Virus record (IMG/VR): IMGVR_UViG_3300045120_000353
Coordinates: 1-23,873 of that record
DNA: 23,873 nt
Source: a virus
Reading direction: 5' to 3' (one strand)
In this document: positions 6,158-23,873 of the stretch, piece by piece
Layout: every line of letters starts with the position of its first letter
Numbering within the stretch: the first letter of the stretch is position 1
Made by a program: the position numbers and the translations under genes
Notes under the pieces: model-generated
What the model was told of the DNA's origin: nothing
Database searches by the model: none
The model's input: only the letters and a program-made list of their open reading frames with translations

Positions 6158-6733
6158 ATGGCTAACGTCAACGCACCCAACGGCTTCCAGGCCGTTAAAC
6201 ACCAGCGTGGCGGGACCGTGAACCGCCGCGTGCGATATCACATTGCGGGGGCTTACGGCACCGCTGTGTACAACGGCGATGCGGTCGAACCCACCACGAC
6301 CAGCAAGAACATCATCCGCCCCACGGCGGCCACGGATCGCCTGATTGGCATCTTCGACAACTGCTACTACCTGGATCCGAACCAGTCAGCACCGCAGTAC
6401 AACCGCGTCTGGCCGGCGGCTCAGGCGCTCGTCACCGGATCGGTGTGCGATGCCTGGGTGATTGATGACCCCAGCGCGCTGTTCGAGGTGCAGGTGTCGG
6501 CCGCGTTCGTGCTGGCGAACATCGGCTCGCTTGCAGACCTGGTCATCGGTACGGGCAACGCCTTTACCAAGACCAGCGGTGATGCCATCGACTCCACGAC
6601 CCTGGATGCCTCCGGGACCGTGTTCAAGGTGATGGACATCATCAATCGGCCTGACAACGCCGTGGGCTCGTTCGCACGAGTCCAGGTGATGATCAGCAAG
6701 CACTACCTCGCCGGCGCGATGACCGGAATCTAA
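6158..6733 (+). CDS. Probable capsid decoration/structural protein
   Basis: A GGAG sequence precedes the ATG at 6158. The 191-residue protein begins MANVNAPNGFQAVKHQRGG, an opening typical of small phage virion proteins (the 'NAPxGFxPV' start) encoded next to the major capsid gene. The rest is rich in short beta-strands (AVYNGDAVEPT, RLIGIFDNCYYLD, FEVQVSAAFVL, GTVFKVMDIIN), with a final ARVQVMISKHYL strand, consistent with a decoration or cement protein. It could instead be an alternative coat subunit. Family recall, not a search, supports the call. Confidence 0.6.
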   Translation: MANVNAPNGFQAVKHQRGGTVNRRVRYHIAGAYGTAVYNGDAVEPTTTSKNIIRPTAATDRLIGIFDNCYYLDPNQSAPQYNRVWPAAQALVTGSVCDAWVIDDPSALFEVQVSAAFVLANIGSLADLVIGTGNAFTKTSGDAIDSTTLDASGTVFKVMDIINRPDNAVGSFARVQVMISKHYLAGAMTGI

Positions 6734-17093: not shown

Positions 17094-18095
17094 ATGGCCG
17101 GACCCCGTCAAGCGAACCTTATGGACGTGCAGGTGCAGCCCGGCATCTACATGCAGCGCTCATCGCGTCTGGCCGCGGCTCGCTACACCGACGGCGACAA
17201 TGTGCGCTGGTACCAGAACCTGCCGCAGAAGATGGGTGGCTTCGTCGAGGAGTCCCTCATCGACGGCAACACCGGCGCGCGCCAGTGGCTGCTGGGTCAC
17301 GCACGCAGCACGAAGCAGTGGGATTCACTCGACGGGCAGAACTGGATTGCGGTGGGGACCGAATTCAAGCTGTACGTGATCAACAACCACGTGCTCTACG
17401 ACATCACCCCGATCCGGTACACGAGCTCCATCACCAACGGCGTCACGACCGTAGCGGGCTCACTCGTCATCACCATCGTCGACCCCAACCACGGCGCGCA
17501 GTCCGGGGACCTGGTGACCTACTCCGGCGCGACTGCGGTAGGCAATGTGAACGTCAACGGCGAATGGATGATCGCCAACGTCATTGACCTGAACACGTAC
17601 ACCTTCCTGTACGGCGTGAAGGCCTCCTCGAGCGCCACGGGCGGCGGGGCGATGGTGGCCAATTACGATATCTCGAGCGGGCTGACCTCGGACGGCGCGC
17701 TGTACGGCTATGGCGTAGGTCCGTATGGGCTCGAGGGCTACGGGACCGGGCGCTCAGCCTCCACGTACGGCGGTTTCGCGCGCATCTGGTCGCTCGACAA
17801 CTGGGGCGAGGACCTGTTGGCCTCACCCAACGGTGAGGGGCTGTACTGGTGGGCCCGCAGTTCGGGACCGAATTCGCGCGCCATCCTCAGGCCCACCGCC
17901 CCGGGCAACATCGAGCACATGCTGGTGGGTCCGGATGACCGGCACGTCCTGGCCTTGGGGACCAATCTGCTGAGCGCTGATCTGGCGACAGTCACCGGGC
18001 AGCAGGACAAGATGTTCGTGCGCTGGTGCGAAGGCGATAACTTCGACCTGTGGGTTGAGGCGACCGCGCACCTCCATCGTGATCTTCTCCGATGA
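17094..18095 (+). CDS. Tail nozzle/hub protein, P22 gp10-like, N-terminal part (frameshifted)
   Basis: AAGGAG lies 13 bases upstream, inside the previous gene. The 333-residue reading frame begins like a podovirus tail hub: QPGIYMQRSSRLAAARYTDGDNVRWYQNLPQKMGGF, then QWDSLDGQNWIAVGTEFKLYVI. A beta module at 118-187 (IVDPNHGAQSGDLVTY, VIDLNTYTFLYG) is FCCH-like and appears inserted. The frame then resumes with RIWSLDNWGEDLLASPNGEGLYWW and KMFVRWCEGDNFDLWVEAT. After Thr323 (18065) the family pattern stops, and ten off-pattern residues lead to a TGA. The rest of the protein continues in the +1 frame (entry at 18055). The intact family member would be one protein of about 620-650 residues forming the nozzle below the adaptor ring. 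Confidence 0.65.
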   Translation: MAGPRQANLMDVQVQPGIYMQRSSRLAAARYTDGDNVRWYQNLPQKMGGFVEESLIDGNTGARQWLLGHARSTKQWDSLDGQNWIAVGTEFKLYVINNHVLYDITPIRYTSSITNGVTTVAGSLVITIVDPNHGAQSGDLVTYSGATAVGNVNVNGEWMIANVIDLNTYTFLYGVKASSSATGGGAMVANYDISSGLTSDGALYGYGVGPYGLEGYGTGRSASTYGGFARIWSLDNWGEDLLASPNGEGLYWWARSSGPNSRAILRPTAPGNIEHMLVGPDDRHVLALGTNLLSADLATVTGQQDKMFVRWCEGDNFDLWVEATAHLHRDLLR

Positions 18096-18939
18096 AGGCA
18101 TGTATTCCGTGTCGCTCATCGGCGGCAACGACGTCTACCAGATCCTGCCGATTGCGAATTCCGCCAAGATCATCAGCGCCAATGCGGCCGTGGATGTGAA
18201 CGGCGTCGTCTGGTTCATGGGCGAGAAGGGCTTCTACTACTACGACGGCACGGTTCATGACGTGCCATGTGACATCTCGGACTACGTCTTCGGGACGGAG
18301 AGCGACCCCACCTCGGGGCTGAATCGCCAGATGGCCGACAAGGTCACCTGTCGGGTGCGCCTGGCCTTCTTCGAGATTCACTGGAGCTTCACCAGCAAAA
18401 GCAGCGACGAGAACGACAGTACGGCCATCTACAACTGGCAGACGCAGTGCTGGACCAAATCCTCGATTCATCGCGAGTGCGGCCTCGACAAGAACGTGTT
18501 TTACGGGGTCCCTGTGGGCTTCAACGACACCGGCATGTACCTGGAGGAGACCGGGACGGATGTCGGCACCGAGGAAGGACTGTTCAACTTCCTGCTCACT
18601 TGGGAGGGGGAGGTCAGCATGACGTCCCAGCGTTCTGTTCCGCAGAACCAGACACTCTGGGGGAGCTCCGCGGGGTCCATGCTGATGTTGATCCACTCGC
18701 TGGTTCCGGACTTCAAGGAGCACATCGGCTCGTTGACCATTCAGTGCCGCGGCCGCGAGTTCACCAATGACCCGCTGGTTTATGGCGACGTGCTCACCAT
18801 CACCGCAGGTGTGACGGACCAGGTGGACCCGCAGTTCTGCCAGCGGCGCGTTGCGCTGTACCAGGAGTCCGTCGCCATGGGCGATTACTGGCGGATGGAT
18901 TACTGGCGCGCGATCGCCAGCCCCTTCGGCCGGCGCTGA
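18055..18939 (+). CDS. Tail nozzle/hub protein, C-terminal part (frameshifted)
   Basis: This frame has no convincing start of its own. The TTG at 18055 and the ATG at 18100 lack ribosome-binding sites, and the sequence from RTSIVIFSDEGMYSVSLIGG onward reads as the direct continuation of the preceding nozzle fragment. It contains NAAVDVNGVVWFMGEKGFYYYDG, a VPCDISDYVFG block, then FEIHWSFTSKSSDENDSTAIYN, which are hallmarks of podovirus hub proteins with beta-propeller blades. It ends VAMGDYWRMDYWRAIASPFGRR. Comparison with the usual layout suggests that about 20-25 residues between WVEAT and RTSIV are missing, together with the frame. The stop overlaps the next start (TGATG). Confidence 0.62.
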   Translation: MRRPRTSIVIFSDEGMYSVSLIGGNDVYQILPIANSAKIISANAAVDVNGVVWFMGEKGFYYYDGTVHDVPCDISDYVFGTESDPTSGLNRQMADKVTCRVRLAFFEIHWSFTSKSSDENDSTAIYNWQTQCWTKSSIHRECGLDKNVFYGVPVGFNDTGMYLEETGTDVGTEEGLFNFLLTWEGEVSMTSQRSVPQNQTLWGSSAGSMLMLIHSLVPDFKEHIGSLTIQCRGREFTNDPLVYGDVLTITAGVTDQVDPQFCQRRVALYQESVAMGDYWRMDYWRAIASPFGRR

Positions 18940-21161
18940 TGGCCAGCAAAACCCGTCAAGCGCTGGCCGAGCCGGACATCCAGTTCGACGACCCCAAGCT
19001 CAACCGGCTGGTCCAACTGGTGCGGCGGCTGACCGTCGAGGCGCAAAGGGTGCAGCAGATGGTGGCCGGCGGCGTGGCCGACCAGGTGCTGGTAAAGACC
19101 GGTAGCGGTGACTACGAGGCGGCCTGGGGCGCAGCGGAAGGAGGTGGCACGGTCACGGGTGCCAAGAACCTGGGTGCAGGCGATGGACTGTTCGTGAGCC
19201 TGCAGGGGTCGCTCCTCGCCTTCAAAGGCCTTTCGGCCGGCGCGAATATCGTGCTGGTGCCCACCAGCGACACCATCCAGATTGCGGTGACCGGTTTGCC
19301 CCCCGACGGTGTTGGCACGGTCACCTCCGTGGGCATCAACTCTGCGGACCTGGCTGTCACCGGCTCCCCCATCACCGATCACGGCAGCATCGAACTGGAG
19401 ATTAAGAACGGGGCGGTGACGTACGCGAAGATGCAGAGCAGCGCATCGGATGCCGTCGTGATTGGTCGGGGTTTCGGCGAAGGGACGGGTGTCCTTGAGG
19501 AACTCACCCTCTCGCAGGTCCTGGACTACCTCGGCAGCGCGGTGCAGGGCGACATCCTCTTCCGCGGGGCGATCAACTGGCAGTACCTGGCACCCGGCAG
19601 CATCGGCCAGTTTCTGGGTACGCAAGGTCCAGCGGCGGATCCGGCGTGGGCCTCAGTCGGCACGGCCACCACGCTGCTGGATCCGCTCATCTTAGGGCTC
19701 GACTACGACTTGGTGAGCAGTACGGGCTGGGCCAACGTCAGCATTGCCTGTCTGCTGCGCGCGGCACTGTTGACCAATTTGGCCACGTCCTGGAATTTCG
19801 GTCTCAACGTGACGCTGGGCCCGATGCTGGTGACCTCCTGCGTAGTCCGACGTGTCCTGCGGGACACGAACACCTACATCGACAGCACTCCGGTGACCTT
19901 CGGTGGCTCACTCACACCTACCTTGGTGACCGGGCTGAACGTCAGCGATGAGATCGCGGTCCCGGTCGATGACACCCACGACTACGTGATCGTGCTGCAC
20001 TTCGATGCGGCCGTGAGTGGCACGGCATCGCTGCCCTTGAGCGCAGGTGACGGCAGCGACCTGGCGAGTACTTCGGCAGTTGGCGATCACACCGCGGATG
20101 CCGACTACAGCGCGTTCAGCTTCGCGGTCGACAACAACGTCAGCTTCTATGGCGCCTGGGTCGTGCGTGGCAACGTGGGCAGCATCACCGCAGTCTGGCG
20201 GGCCGGATCTGGTGCCCCCTCGAACAGCCTCGGCGTCGATGGGGACTTCTACCTCGACAGCGTCCTGGGCGATGTCTACGAGAAGACCGGCGGCATTTAC
20301 GCCATCGTGGCGAACATCAAAGGTCCGGCTGGCACCAATGGGACGAACGGCACCAATGGGACCAATGGGGCGCCTGGTTCGGTCTGGCGTGATGGCACGG
20401 GCGTACCGTCCAATTCTCTGGGCATCGACGGGGACTACTACCTGGATGATGCGACGAATTTCGTCTACGCCAAGGCCGCAGGTGTCTACACCCACGTCGC
20501 CACACTGGGGTCCACTGGGGCCGGCGGAAATATCACGCCAGATACTCATCCAGCTTCTGCGGATGCAGCTGACGATGAGTTCGAGACAGGATCGTCTATC
20601 AACCTCAGTCAATGGACGTGGGTCGCGCAATCTACGGCGAGCACAGCCGTTGCAGCAGGCGCTTTGCGATTCAGCGGATCCGCTGGCGTGGGCATCAACG
20701 TCTCAATGCTGGTGCAGAACACAGTGGGATCGACGTGGGCATATACCTGCAAGGTTCTACGTCGCGGGTTCTCAAGCGGTCAGCACTGCGGTGCATTGGC
20801 TGTCAGGAATAGCGGCACCGGAAAGTTGGTGCTATTCGGGTTTGCAGATGCGGGACTTGCGGTCCAGCGGTTCAATAGCCCGACCTCTTTCTCAGCCAAT
20901 GGAACGGTGACTAGCGTCACATTCCCTACCGTCACCCTGGCGATCTCTCAGACTCAGTACTGGTATTTCCAGCTTGCATCGAACGGTACGAATTTGACGC
21001 TGGGCATCAGCCAGAGCGGCGTACCCGGTACTTTTGAGATATTCAGCACAGAACCCCTGGCATCCTTCATCACCTCTGTCGACCAAATTGCCTTGGCAAT
21101 CGACAACAACAGCGCCACTCAGGGCGTGCTGGTCTACGATTGGTTCCGGAAGACAGCATGA
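18939..21161 (+). CDS. Long tail fibre with collagen-like segment and lectin-like C-terminus
   Basis: The ATG overlaps the stop of the nozzle gene (TGATG). The 740-residue protein starts with a predicted coiled coil (PKLNRLVQLVRRLTVEAQRVQQMV, 17-40). A beta-rich shaft follows (GTVTGAKNLGAGDGLFVSLQG, GTVTSVGINSADLAVTG) and then DYLGSAVQGDILFRGAINW and YLAPGSIGQFLGTQGPAADP, a phrase common in phage and prophage fibres. Two 40-residue tandem modules flank a collagen-like Gly-X-Y stretch (462-480). From about residue 550 comes a separate beta-sandwich-like domain (DDEFETGSSINLSQWTWV, RGFSSGQHCGALAVRN, VLVYDWFRKTA) resembling lectin-like domains. It is likely a trimeric receptor-binding fibre. Confidence 0.7.
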   Translation: MASKTRQALAEPDIQFDDPKLNRLVQLVRRLTVEAQRVQQMVAGGVADQVLVKTGSGDYEAAWGAAEGGGTVTGAKNLGAGDGLFVSLQGSLLAFKGLSAGANIVLVPTSDTIQIAVTGLPPDGVGTVTSVGINSADLAVTGSPITDHGSIELEIKNGAVTYAKMQSSASDAVVIGRGFGEGTGVLEELTLSQVLDYLGSAVQGDILFRGAINWQYLAPGSIGQFLGTQGPAADPAWASVGTATTLLDPLILGLDYDLVSSTGWANVSIACLLRAALLTNLATSWNFGLNVTLGPMLVTSCVVRRVLRDTNTYIDSTPVTFGGSLTPTLVTGLNVSDEIAVPVDDTHDYVIVLHFDAAVSGTASLPLSAGDGSDLASTSAVGDHTADADYSAFSFAVDNNVSFYGAWVVRGNVGSITAVWRAGSGAPSNSLGVDGDFYLDSVLGDVYEKTGGIYAIVANIKGPAGTNGTNGTNGTNGAPGSVWRDGTGVPSNSLGIDGDYYLDDATNFVYAKAAGVYTHVATLGSTGAGGNITPDTHPASADAADDEFETGSSINLSQWTWVAQSTASTAVAAGALRFSGSAGVGINVSMLVQNTVGSTWAYTCKVLRRGFSSGQHCGALAVRNSGTGKLVLFGFADAGLAVQRFNSPTSFSANGTVTSVTFPTVTLAISQTQYWYFQLASNGTNLTLGISQSGVPGTFEIFSTEPLASFITSVDQIALAIDNNSATQGVLVYDWFRKTA
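20193..20501 (+). repeat. Tandem fibre module, two copies
   Basis: Two 120-base (40-codon) units, at 20193-20312 and 20382-20501, share 24 of 40 residues by direct comparison. The consensus is VWR-G-G-PSNSLG-DGD-YLD, followed by VY-K--G-Y--VA. They flank the collagen-like stretch, suggesting duplication of a module that ends a shaft segment. Confidence 0.75.
20322..20378 (+). repeat. Collagen-like Gly-X-Y repeat in fibre gene
   Basis: Six Gly-X-Y triplets and a following Gly (GPA, four GTN copies, GAP, G) lie at residues 462-480 of the fibre. They are encoded by 9-base units of the type GGNACCAAT. Such stretches form triple helices in phage fibres and vary in copy number. Confidence 0.8.
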
Positions 21162-21191
21162 CCGCCTGCTTAACTGAAGGAGAATCCCCGA

Positions 21192-21710
21192 GTGGCTGAT
21201 AAACGTGACGTCCAAATCCGGCCCGCGAGCCCGATGGACTCTGTGAACATCGTCAAGCTAATCAAGGCCGGTTGGAAGGAGACCCCCGCATCAAGCGTGG
21301 GCGAATTCAACGAGTCGGCCATGCTCGAGTACGTGAACACCACGCTGCGACATGCTTTCGCCATCGTGGCGGACCTGGAGGGGCGCCTGCTGGGCACGAT
21401 CGCCGTCGCCCCCATCCGCATGCCGTGGTACTCGAAGGTGATCCTGGCGGAATCCTGGTTTGCGGTCATCCCGCACGACCGGGCCAAGAAGGTGCCGGAG
21501 CAGCTACTCACGGAGCTCGAGCGCTTCCTGGATAAGCAGGGCTTACCCGCTTTACTCGGCACCCAGGTGCTCACCCCGGCGCGGCTGAATGCCGTCTTCA
21601 CGCCTGATCGCGGTTATGAGCCGTTGCGCGCCACGTTTGTCCGGCTGCCGTGCAGTCAGGTCGATACGAAAGGCCGGCCCGTGATGCCACCGAAGGCGGT
21701 GAGCGCATGA
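21192..21710 (+). CDS. GNAT-like acetyltransferase
   Basis: The GTG start has AAGGAG 9 bases upstream. The 172-residue product follows the GNAT fold order: an N-terminal strand and helix (VQIRPASPMDSVNIVKLIKAGW), strands AFAIVADLEGRLLGTIAVAPIR and ILAESWFAVIP, a helix (KVPEQLLTELERFLDKQG), and a C-terminal strand/loop with a GYEPLRATFVRL end typical of GNATs. The acetyl-CoA loop (R/Q-x-x-G-x-G/A) is replaced by DRAKKV, so activity is uncertain. The stop overlaps the next start (ATGA). Phage GNAT-like proteins next to fibre genes are common, and their substrates are mostly unknown. Confidence 0.6.
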   Translation: MADKRDVQIRPASPMDSVNIVKLIKAGWKETPASSVGEFNESAMLEYVNTTLRHAFAIVADLEGRLLGTIAVAPIRMPWYSKVILAESWFAVIPHDRAKKVPEQLLTELERFLDKQGLPALLGTQVLTPARLNAVFTPDRGYEPLRATFVRLPCSQVDTKGRPVMPPKAVSA

Positions 21711-22228
21711 GTATCGACTTCATGATCATCGGCGCCCCGCGCTCCGGCACGGCCTGGGCTGCGAACTGGTTCACAGACTCGCACACCGTCTGTCACCACG
21801 ATCCGTTATTCCAAAGCTCACTGGAGGCGCTGGATAGCCTGCCGTGTGACGGGCGACTCCTGGGTATCGCGGACACGGGCATTTGGATGTTTCCGGAGTA
21901 CTTGGCGGCTCACAAAGCACGCAAGGTGATCCTGCATCGAAATATCCTGGACGTGAATCAGTCACTGAGCCGGGCTGGACTGCCGTCACTGCCGGTTGAG
22001 ACAGAGGACAGGCTCTGGGATATCAACGGCGCACACTGCGATTGGCACACGCTGTTCGATAATCCCGGTTTCATCTACAGGAACCTTTTCGGCGTGGCCA
22101 TGCCGGATCCGTTGCGCCACTCGATGCTGTGCAAACTCAACGTGCAGGTGGACTTCGAGAAGATCGACCCGGATCCGGCCGTGACCGCGCGCCTGCTCGA
22201 GCGACTGGCCAATGGGGCGCGCGCATGA
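21707..22228 (+). CDS. Sulfotransferase-like P-loop protein
   Basis: The frame is open upstream inside the GNAT-like gene, but the ATG at 21707 overlaps that gene's stop (ATGA) and begins MSIDFMIIGAPRSGTAWAANWF, a standard start for the fold. GAPRSGTAW (9-17) matches the 5'-phosphosulfate-binding loop of sulfotransferases, and KVILHRNILDVNQSL (73-87) matches the second, 3'-phosphate-binding motif with Arg78 and Ser87. At 173 residues it is much shorter than typical enzymes (about 250-300), as some phage and bacterial members are. Such enzymes move sulfate from PAPS to sugars, proteins or small molecules, but nothing in the sequence identifies the substrate. A nucleotide kinase-like role is a weaker alternative. 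Confidence 0.6.
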   Translation: MSIDFMIIGAPRSGTAWAANWFTDSHTVCHHDPLFQSSLEALDSLPCDGRLLGIADTGIWMFPEYLAAHKARKVILHRNILDVNQSLSRAGLPSLPVETEDRLWDINGAHCDWHTLFDNPGFIYRNLFGVAMPDPLRHSMLCKLNVQVDFEKIDPDPAVTARLLERLANGARA

Positions 22229-22821
22229 AGTACTTACGCCCTCTCGCCGGACCGATGCCCGTCGAGCCGATTGTCCAGGAGCTCGCCGAGCACCCGGAAC
22301 TGTGGAATCGCTTCCAGATGCGCACTGGTTACGGTGACTCACCCCACCAGGTCGATGATATTTGGTGCCGATATCGCTCGTTCGACGACATCACGCTGAA
22401 GGGCATGGCGATACAGGAGTTCGTGGGCACCGAGCACGACAGCGTTTGGTACGACGCCATCGACGTGCTCCCCAACCTGCGGGCGTTCGTCTTCGAGACC
22501 TGCCGGTACTTCGAAGTCGAGCGGTTGGGCGGCGTCCTCATCACCCGCATCCCGCCAGGCGGGGAGGTGAAGTGGCACACGGACGCGGGCTGGCACGCAA
22601 ATTTCTACAGCAAGATAGCGCTGCAGATCAAAAGTGCACCGGGTCAGGCGTTCTGTTTCGAGGATGGGAAGTTCGAGTGTGAGCCCGGCACTGTGTACGC
22701 ATTCCACAATTCAGTGCCGCATCGAGTGATCAACCCCACCGACCAGGAGCGCATCACCCTGATAATGTGCGTCCGCTTGGATCAGAGGAAACCCCCGCTG
22801 TGGCAGTCGGAAGCTTCGTAA
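22225..22821 (+). CDS. Aspartyl/asparaginyl hydroxylase-like Fe(II)/2-oxoglutarate oxygenase
   Basis: The ATG at 22225 overlaps the sulfotransferase-like stop (ATGA). The 198-residue product has a double-stranded beta-helix core with a clear metal site: His118-x-Asp120 in GGEVKWHTDAGWH, a distal His166 in FHNSVPHRVINPT, and Arg176 in DQERITLIMCV as the probable 2-oxoglutarate anchor. The strand VLITRIPPGGEV before the first His and the IALQIKSAPGQAFCFE strand are typical of aspartyl/asparaginyl beta-hydroxylase-like proteins. Such enzymes hydroxylate amino acid side chains or small molecules using Fe(II), O2 and 2-oxoglutarate. Coupling to the two previous genes suggests a common pathway or target. 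The substrate is unknown. Confidence 0.75.
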   Translation: MKYLRPLAGPMPVEPIVQELAEHPELWNRFQMRTGYGDSPHQVDDIWCRYRSFDDITLKGMAIQEFVGTEHDSVWYDAIDVLPNLRAFVFETCRYFEVERLGGVLITRIPPGGEVKWHTDAGWHANFYSKIALQIKSAPGQAFCFEDGKFECEPGTVYAFHNSVPHRVINPTDQERITLIMCVRLDQRKPPLWQSEAS

Positions 22822-23360
22822 GAGCGCAGAAAGTCATCCGTGACGCGAAGGGCCACGTGCTCGGCTTCGTGCCGCGTACGGCCGAGGAGGTCTTGGCCTT
22901 CATCCTGGGCAACTCAGTTCGCGACAAGAAGACCGGCTGCTTGCTATCCAGACTGCGCAAGGACGAAAAGGGCTACGCCCGCGTCAACTTCGGCGGTGAG
23001 ATCCGTGTCCACCGCGTCGTCTTCTACAAAGGCCGTCCGGCCAAAGGCGCCCCGCAGGTACTGCACACCTGCGACGTGCGCCACTGCATCGAGGAAACCC
23101 ACCTCTACGCAGGTAATAACACCCAGAACATCGCTGACAAAGTCTCCCGTGACCGCTCCGGTAAGAAGCTCAACATCGCAAAGGTTCGGAGGATCAAGGC
23201 CATGCTTGCCGCGGGCAACTCGCAAAAACGCCTCGCTGAGAAATTCGGCGTTAATAGGTCAATCATCAGCCGGATCAAAACCGGCGTCCGCTGGGCTCAT
23301 GTCCAGTACAATCCAGGACCTGGTTCGGTGGCTAAGTCGCCATTAGAATCAGGTACTTAG
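22800..23360 (+). CDS. HNH endonuclease with C-terminal helix-turn-helix
   Basis: Two GTG starts are possible. The one at 22800 has AGAGGA about 10 bases upstream and is preferred over 22767. The gene overlaps the end of the hydroxylase-like gene by 22 bases. The 186-residue product has GYARVNFGGEIRVHRVVFY (59-76), VLHTCDVRHC (87-96), then HLYAGNNTQNIADK (101-114), the layout of phage HNH_3-type nucleases with His71, His89, Cys91, Cys96 and Asn110. A helix-turn-helix follows at 140-163 (NSQKRLAEKFGVNRSIISRI), as in homing-type enzymes that bind their target. It is probably a free-standing selfish endonuclease inserted between virion genes. Confidence 0.8.
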   Translation: MAVGSFVRAQKVIRDAKGHVLGFVPRTAEEVLAFILGNSVRDKKTGCLLSRLRKDEKGYARVNFGGEIRVHRVVFYKGRPAKGAPQVLHTCDVRHCIEETHLYAGNNTQNIADKVSRDRSGKKLNIAKVRRIKAMLAAGNSQKRLAEKFGVNRSIISRIKTGVRWAHVQYNPGPGSVAKSPLESGT

Positions 23361-23387
23361 ACGCCCTGGGGCGCGGCAATTGGGGCT

Positions 23388-23873
23388 GTGGGAGCCCTGG
23401 GTGCCGCGGAAATAAACAAGAGCTCGAAGACCGGCGGCAGTTCTTCATCGGACTCGCCTGAGACCATCCAGGCGACGAACCAGGCACTCACCGCGGGTGA
23501 GAACATCGCCAACCGGGCGTACACCCCCTACCAGGGCCAGGTCGTGCAGGGTCTGTCGGCCAATGAGCAGCAGGGTGTAGGCCAGGCCGCGCCCGACAGT
23601 GCGTTGAACACGCAGGCTTCCGGTGATTTGGCGGCGGCCGGCCAGTCCATCTCGGGCGTGAAGGACTACAACGCGGACAACCTCAAGTCGTACATGGACC
23701 CGTATGTACAGAGTGTGCTCACGCCGCAATTGACGCAGGAGAACACGGAGTACAACGCGCAGCGGTCCGCGTTGCTGAACAACAAGGCGGGGGCTTTCGG
23801 GGGCGATCGCTCCGCGCTCGAGGGCGGGCAACTGGACTATGCGCATAAGCAGGCCGTGTCCAGCATGGTGGGC
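23388..23873 (+). CDS. Tail/internal virion protein, 3'-truncated, start uncertain
   Basis: The frame is open from just after the HNH stop (TAG 23358-23360, same frame) to the window end. It contains TPYQGQVVQGLSANEQQG, MDPYVQSVLTPQL and then KAGAFGGDRSALEGGQLDYA. These match the pattern of large phage tail or internal virion proteins that begin with 'pYtG--va-ls--q' and 'GAFGGsR'. The only ordinary start upstream of the conserved part is GTG at 23388, with a weak ribosome-binding site. However, the codons directly after the HNH stop read as a typical N-terminus (PWGAAIGAVGALG) if the ACG at 23361 were the start. Either ACG is used, the start has been damaged, or the GTG is correct. Confidence 0.55.
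   Translation, partial: MGALGAAEINKSSKTGGSSSSDSPETIQATNQALTAGENIANRAYTPYQGQVVQGLSANEQQGVGQAAPDSALNTQASGDLAAAGQSISGVKDYNADNLKSYMDPYVQSVLTPQLTQENTEYNAQRSALLNNKAGAFGGDRSALEGGQLDYAHKQAVSSMVG

Follow-up and report, generated by a model that had tools for sequence, protein, structure and literature searches.

The question raised by this locus is what three coupled genes for putative modifying enzymes do among the virion genes of a phage, and whether they share a target. The window, by which we mean the whole stretch analysed, is the 23,873-base IMG/VR virus record IMGVR_UViG_3300045120_000353 (positions 1 to 23,873), and its gene set is of the podovirus type, with portal, capsid, tail adaptor, tail-stabilising relatives and fibre-like genes. 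An earlier reading made from the sequence alone had proposed that GNAT-like, sulfotransferase-like and hydroxylase-like genes are joined here by two ATGA overlaps. All three open reading frames were found at the positions given, on the plus strand, and both joins were seen. The order 3' of the fibre-like genes is GNAT, sulfotransferase-like, oxygenase, HNH and the 5' part of the gene for an ejection protein, as follows.

18939..21161, plus strand: fibre-like gene 5' of the cassette (open reading frame), with a short collagen-like stretch, (Gly-X-Y)x7
21177..21182, plus strand: Shine-Dalgarno AAGGAG of the cassette, seen in the sequence; the GTG start is 9 bases on
21192..21710, plus strand: predicted GNAT-fold gene, 172 aa, start GTG 21192, stop TGA 21710 (PHROG, fold model, alignment)
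21707..21710, plus strand: ATGA start/stop overlap between the GNAT and sulfotransferase-like genes, seen in the sequence; the 4-base overlap is also present in the related loci L014, L015, L016 and L110
21707..22228, plus strand: sulfotransferase-like P-loop gene, 173 aa (PHROG, motifs in a 20-row alignment, model)
22225..22228, plus strand: ATGA start/stop overlap between the sulfotransferase-like and oxygenase genes, seen in the sequence and found in relatives too
22225..22821, plus strand: Fe(II)/2-oxoglutarate oxygenase gene, Asp_Arg_Hydrox family, 198 aa (PF05118, invariant residues, profile matches)
22800..23360, plus strand: HNH homing-endonuclease-like gene with HTH (phrog_59, E=1e-21)
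23361..23873, plus strand: DNA-ejection protein gene, N-terminal part (TPWGAAIGAVG...), ending at the record end (translation, relatives' ejection profile)

The location of the cassette in the late (virion) region was borne out. It had further been placed behind the last fibre gene, and a fibre-like gene does lie 5' of it, but what stays constant among relatives is the ejection gene downstream of it. Pfam and PHROG searches with this fibre-like gene (18939..21161) gave no family above noise.

The first cassette protein is predicted to have a GNAT fold. It matches phrog_1249 (E=4e-8), and its match to the Pfam GNAT family is below the cut-off. Its AlphaFold model has low confidence (pLDDT 55), yet GNATs make up all of the leading structural matches, the best with a Z of 10.9. 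In the alignment the window departs from the acetyl-CoA motif [QR]-x-x-G-x-[GA], reading R97-A-K-K-V-P102; the sixth position is Pro in five homologues and the Arg is gone in L165. Since the motif is degenerate, cofactor use is doubtful and the +42 chemistry uncertain. A tblastn search with this protein gave no match among phage records, and profile methods were needed to find its relatives.

The GAPRSGTAW loop picked out earlier corresponds to residues 9-17 of the second protein, which matches phrog_10855, a family named "hydrolase" (E=1e-37), and Pfam Sulfotransfer_1 below the cut-off (E=0.008). A PAPS-type P-loop, PRSGT (residues 11-15), is present, with P11, R12, S13, T15 and W17 invariant in the 20 rows of the alignment, and so is a 3'-phosphate-type R78-x7-S86, in which R78 is invariant and S86 is kept in at least 90% of the rows. 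The model (pLDDT 87) gave a best Z of 9.5 with the sulfotransferase domain 4gox, followed by TPST1 (9.3) and P-loop kinases (9.0), and the top Foldseek matches were mostly sulfotransferases (E ~1e-3). The fold cannot part sulfotransferases from P-loop kinases at these values, but the motifs do, namely a PRSGT without the Walker lysine and the Arg...Ser pair. An ATP kinase or NTP hydrolase, as the PHROG label implies, was rejected since the Walker A motif GxxxxGK[ST] does not fit GAPRSGTA, which has no Lys before the Thr. On inspection of the sequence, the C-terminal RKGxxGDWK of cytosolic SULTs is absent, and the length is 173 aa against ~290. We do not claim a cytosolic SULT; judged by its sequence, the protein is sulfotransferase-like with both PAPS-type motifs kept.

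The third protein matches PF05118 above the curated cut-off (E=6e-7, 29.9 bits against 22.6) and shares with human AspH and L-proline cis-4-hydroxylase, both members of that family, the domain match and the pattern of H...H and Arg+10. The H118-x-D120...H166 motif noted earlier was found; H118, D120, H166 and R176, the last ten residues after H166, are invariant in 20 diverse relatives, and they would provide both an HxD...H metal site and a 2-oxoglutarate-binding Arg. The metal site of human AspH consists of two histidines only. The window enzyme is unlike human AspH in having HxD, in being a single short domain and in having no EGF-like substrate in the window; an AspH-type EGF substrate was rejected since the consensus was found in none of the window's ORFs. 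When compared with solved structures, the family profile gave a stronger match to L-proline cis-4-hydroxylase (E=2e-7) than to AspH (E=6e-4), and the protein had no match in NCBIfam.

To follow the genes elsewhere, an oxygenase-driven scan of viral contigs confirmed at least 560 stretches, the best 80 of which were kept as the locus set. A sulfotransferase-driven scan gave a second set of 78 loci, and a GNAT-driven scan gave five loci besides the window. The succession GNAT, sulfotransferase-like and oxygenase with 4-base overlaps was also found in L014, L015 and L016 (contigs of 64.8-68.6 kb), whose cassette proteins are 37-58% identical to those of the window. L110 has the GNAT and sulfotransferase genes in the same order with the 4-base overlap up to the contig end, and L165 has the triple with one extra gene before the oxygenase. 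The sulfotransferase is therefore next to the GNAT in 5/5 of the GNAT relatives, and the oxygenase follows in the 4/4 with enough sequence. Chance does not account for the arrangement, given that diverged phages have the same order and overlaps. This supports the earlier suggestion that the genes are made together by translational coupling, and the co-occurrence of the triple in other phages, which it had named as a check, is real, although confined to a small clade.

Every locus was also searched with profiles of five families (oxygenase, sulfotransferase, GNAT, cupin, ejection protein). Among the best 80 of the at least 560 oxygenase-driven stretches, 74 encode an ejection protein no more than 1.8 kb from the oxygenase, and in 68 its gene is next or next-but-one after the oxygenase. 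In the same best 80 of at least 560, the partner just upstream, again within 1.8 kb, is a cupin in 47 and a sulfotransferase in 15, and the two were never found together (0/80). The one exception came from the sulfotransferase-driven set, where L196 has a cupin between the sulfotransferase and ejection genes. In that set (n=78) the oxygenase is the next gene in 16 loci and the ejection gene is next, without an oxygenase, in 17, while about half of the loci are other phages with the gene by tail-tip, lysis or DNA-metabolism genes. Within one sulfotransferase group (26 loci at >=60% identity linkage) the oxygenase is present in six, while 16 lack it and have the ejection gene as neighbour, and the oxygenase tree requires at least eight changes between sulfotransferase and cupin partners. 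The partner changes and group counts together mean that the slot persists while the genes in it are exchanged. The cassette is thus one filling of a conserved late podovirus slot, which is bounded by the tail/fibre genes and by the gene for the DNA-ejection protein. The other fillings are oxygenase with cupin, the sulfotransferase-like gene alone, and sulfotransferase with oxygenase; GNAT, sulfotransferase and oxygenase, as in the window, is the richest filling among the loci examined. Prophages carrying the slot were found in Variovorax (five genomes), Rhodanobacteraceae, Ramlibacter, Undibacterium, Paraburkholderia and metagenome bins.

Since close sulfotransferase relatives occur with and without the oxygenase, and the oxygenase is more often with a cupin, the genes are separable occupants rather than parts of an obligate pathway. 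The single shared target that the sequence-only reading had proposed is not supported in that form, given this separability and the more frequent cupin partner. We had also considered that the sulfotransferase is always tied to the oxygenase, as indicated by a first tree in which just one switch separated linked from free genes, but that set was biased by its collection and the sulfotransferase-driven scan disproved it. The same fluidity raises the possibility that the genes are unrelated passengers, gathered independently at a late insertion-permissive site with no common substrate. The interchangeable content (cupin, sulfotransferase, oxygenase, GNAT, HNH and, in L150, methyltransferase genes) and the gain or loss of the oxygenase among close sulfotransferase relatives would fit such an origin, but enzyme-only pairings recur with overlapping or abutting genes, and the near-exclusion of cupin and sulfotransferase (0/80 of the best 80 of at least 560; L196 the one exception) also speaks against it, so that we regard it as unlikely.

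The slot also holds other genes. A small family with a DDLxD motif (HxWDDLIDKD), which had no Pfam match, lies behind the sulfotransferase gene in L145 (3494-3970), L150 (4185-4658) and L151 (3495-3953), and the L150 slot also houses a methyltransferase. In four siphoviruses (L094, L096, L098, L172) the sulfotransferase-like gene lies at another late site, between tail-tip genes of the NlpC/J-like region.

Annotated phages hold few counterparts. The slot is widespread, with at least 560 oxygenase-bearing viral stretches, yet only nine annotated phage records had a match to the oxygenase, six of them distant cyanophage relatives and the others MW202665, Pseudomonas phage PfAn1 and Limnohabitans phage DC33. 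In PfAn1 and MW202665 the oxygenase adjoins ejection proteins. Its partner in PfAn1 and in DC33 (where it is ORF8) is a GNAT from PHROG 1249; these are two of the window's families, here side by side, and in PfAn1 the pair lies just before the ejection protein. These pairs differ from the window in having the oxygenase first, no sulfotransferase and only 20-26% identity, and in DC33 the pair lies between terminase and portal. The 39-kb DC33 record with a terminase (L012, PQ492659.1) is assigned in its taxonomy to Inoviridae, evidently a misclassification. Bordetella phage BPP-1 has a GNAT, bbp24 (phrog_1249), followed by bbp23, a relative of the slot cupin (phrog_12032). Unlike the window, this pair lies between terminase and portal with neither oxygenase nor sulfotransferase, and the GNAT motif is canonical (R-P-G-G-A-G). 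The bbp23 gene (L126, 3962-4881) is annotated as a short tail fiber protein yet is a cupin relative, so the PHROG 12032 label may mislead.

Full-length relatives of the second protein (~35-42% identity, 95-98% coverage) are the phrog_10855 proteins of Pseudomonas, Xanthomonas, Stenotrophomonas and Variovorax phages, including PaMx25, PaMx11 and phiH1. They keep the P-loop (PRSGT/PRSAT) and R-x7-S and are annotated as "putative nucleotide triphosphate hydrolase" or "similar to sulfotransferase", but unlike in the window their genes have DNA-metabolism or lysis genes around them, and neither an oxygenase nor a GNAT accompanies them. Such settings bear on the possibility of a role in auxiliary metabolism or counter-defence, in which the enzymes would have metabolites (free amino acids, nucleotides or defence molecules) as substrates. 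The PaMx25 relative lies among denV, nrdJ and helicase genes, among solved structures the oxygenase profile best matches proline hydroxylases, whose substrate is free proline, and DC33 ORF8, named aspartyl/asparaginyl beta-hydroxylase, was handled as a metabolic gene by its describers (PMC12195039). We nevertheless give this a small chance, as the oxygenase gene, almost without exception, keeps to the late virion region next to one structural gene (best 80 of at least 560).

The explanation that we favour as a whole, tentatively and at somewhat less than an even chance, is a swappable late slot holding co-made tailoring enzymes, with residues of virion proteins as the likeliest target. The three proteins would be produced together late in infection via translational coupling. 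They would act as separate small soluble enzymes, drawing on host PAPS, on host 2-oxoglutarate, Fe(II) and O2, and perhaps on acetyl-CoA. During assembly they might then alter residues of the virion proteins being synthesised in parallel, with the ejection or fibre proteins as the leading candidates. Virion-protein tailoring is preferred since one virion gene recurs as the neighbour of the cassette. Caution is called for by the siphovirus sulfotransferase relatives and by the interchangeability of the slot; the former lack an ejection protein, which weakens that protein as the target of the sulfotransferase-like enzyme. The site of the DC33 pair, between terminase and portal, and the lack of an EGF-like AspH site in the window's ORFs also count against the favoured explanation, and the late-operon position may signify late timing alone.

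The hydropathy of the three cassette proteins gave no membrane segments, which suggests cytosolic action. This counts against modification of the host surface, in which lipid A, O-antigen or other envelope molecules would be tailored late, limiting superinfection or the loss of progeny on debris. Such a role could be expected from the family of the oxygenase, since PF05118 also holds lipid hydroxylases (LpxO), from glycans being common sulfotransferase substrates, and from the position near fibre genes, which is comparable to that of serotype-conversion genes. However, no glycan or lipid genes lie near the cassette, and the oxygenase, without an NCBIfam match, has its best solved relatives among enzymes acting on proline or protein Asp/Asn, making host-surface modification improbable.

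A more specific form of virion-protein tailoring is combinatorial, with interchangeable late podovirus enzymes (sulfotransferase, hydroxylase, acetyltransferase-like, cupin) tailoring ejection or fibre proteins and thereby tuning infection. We consider this rather unlikely, if still a real prospect; if true, virions with hydroxylated, sulfated or acylated residues would be expected. A collagen-like fibre as the target was rejected: Gly-X-Y repeats lie upstream in 9/17 sulfotransferase loci against 1/66 others, but only one independent contrast supported the link, and in the second sulfotransferase set the repeats occurred only in two phages already counted. Were phage virion proteins sulfated or hydroxylated, these would, to our knowledge, be virion modifications of a new kind. 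The ejection protein beside the slot is a concrete candidate substrate, and the PfAn1 isolate or the Variovorax lysogens are workable material. We found no literature on the cassette, a phrase search found no paper on a phage sulfotransferase, and two papers on podovirus ejection and structural genes (PMC8954989, PMC10386132) make no mention of such modification or enzymes.

Three further features of the window were observed. Successive parts of phrog_3287 are matched by two overlapping ORFs in different frames (17094-18095 and 18055-18939), and the counterpart is a single ORF in L014 and L015; the split is a frameshift in the window, either real or a sequence error. The HNH gene, with a C-terminal HTH, overlaps the 3' end of the oxygenase gene by 22 bases and separates it from the ejection gene. 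Since it is absent from the closest relatives, L014-L016, it is probably a homing insertion in the window. The ejection protein beyond it matches the profile built from its relatives, which belong to phrog_598 / phrog_4287. It seems to start at ACG in the window (ACG-CCC-TGG, in the region 23355-23400) and in L015 (ACG-CCA-TGG, in the region ~6684-6700), whereas L014 has GTG and L016 ATG. A similar AGAATCAGG-ACTTA leader lies ahead of the start in the window and L015, and the ACG is possibly a conserved non-AUG start.
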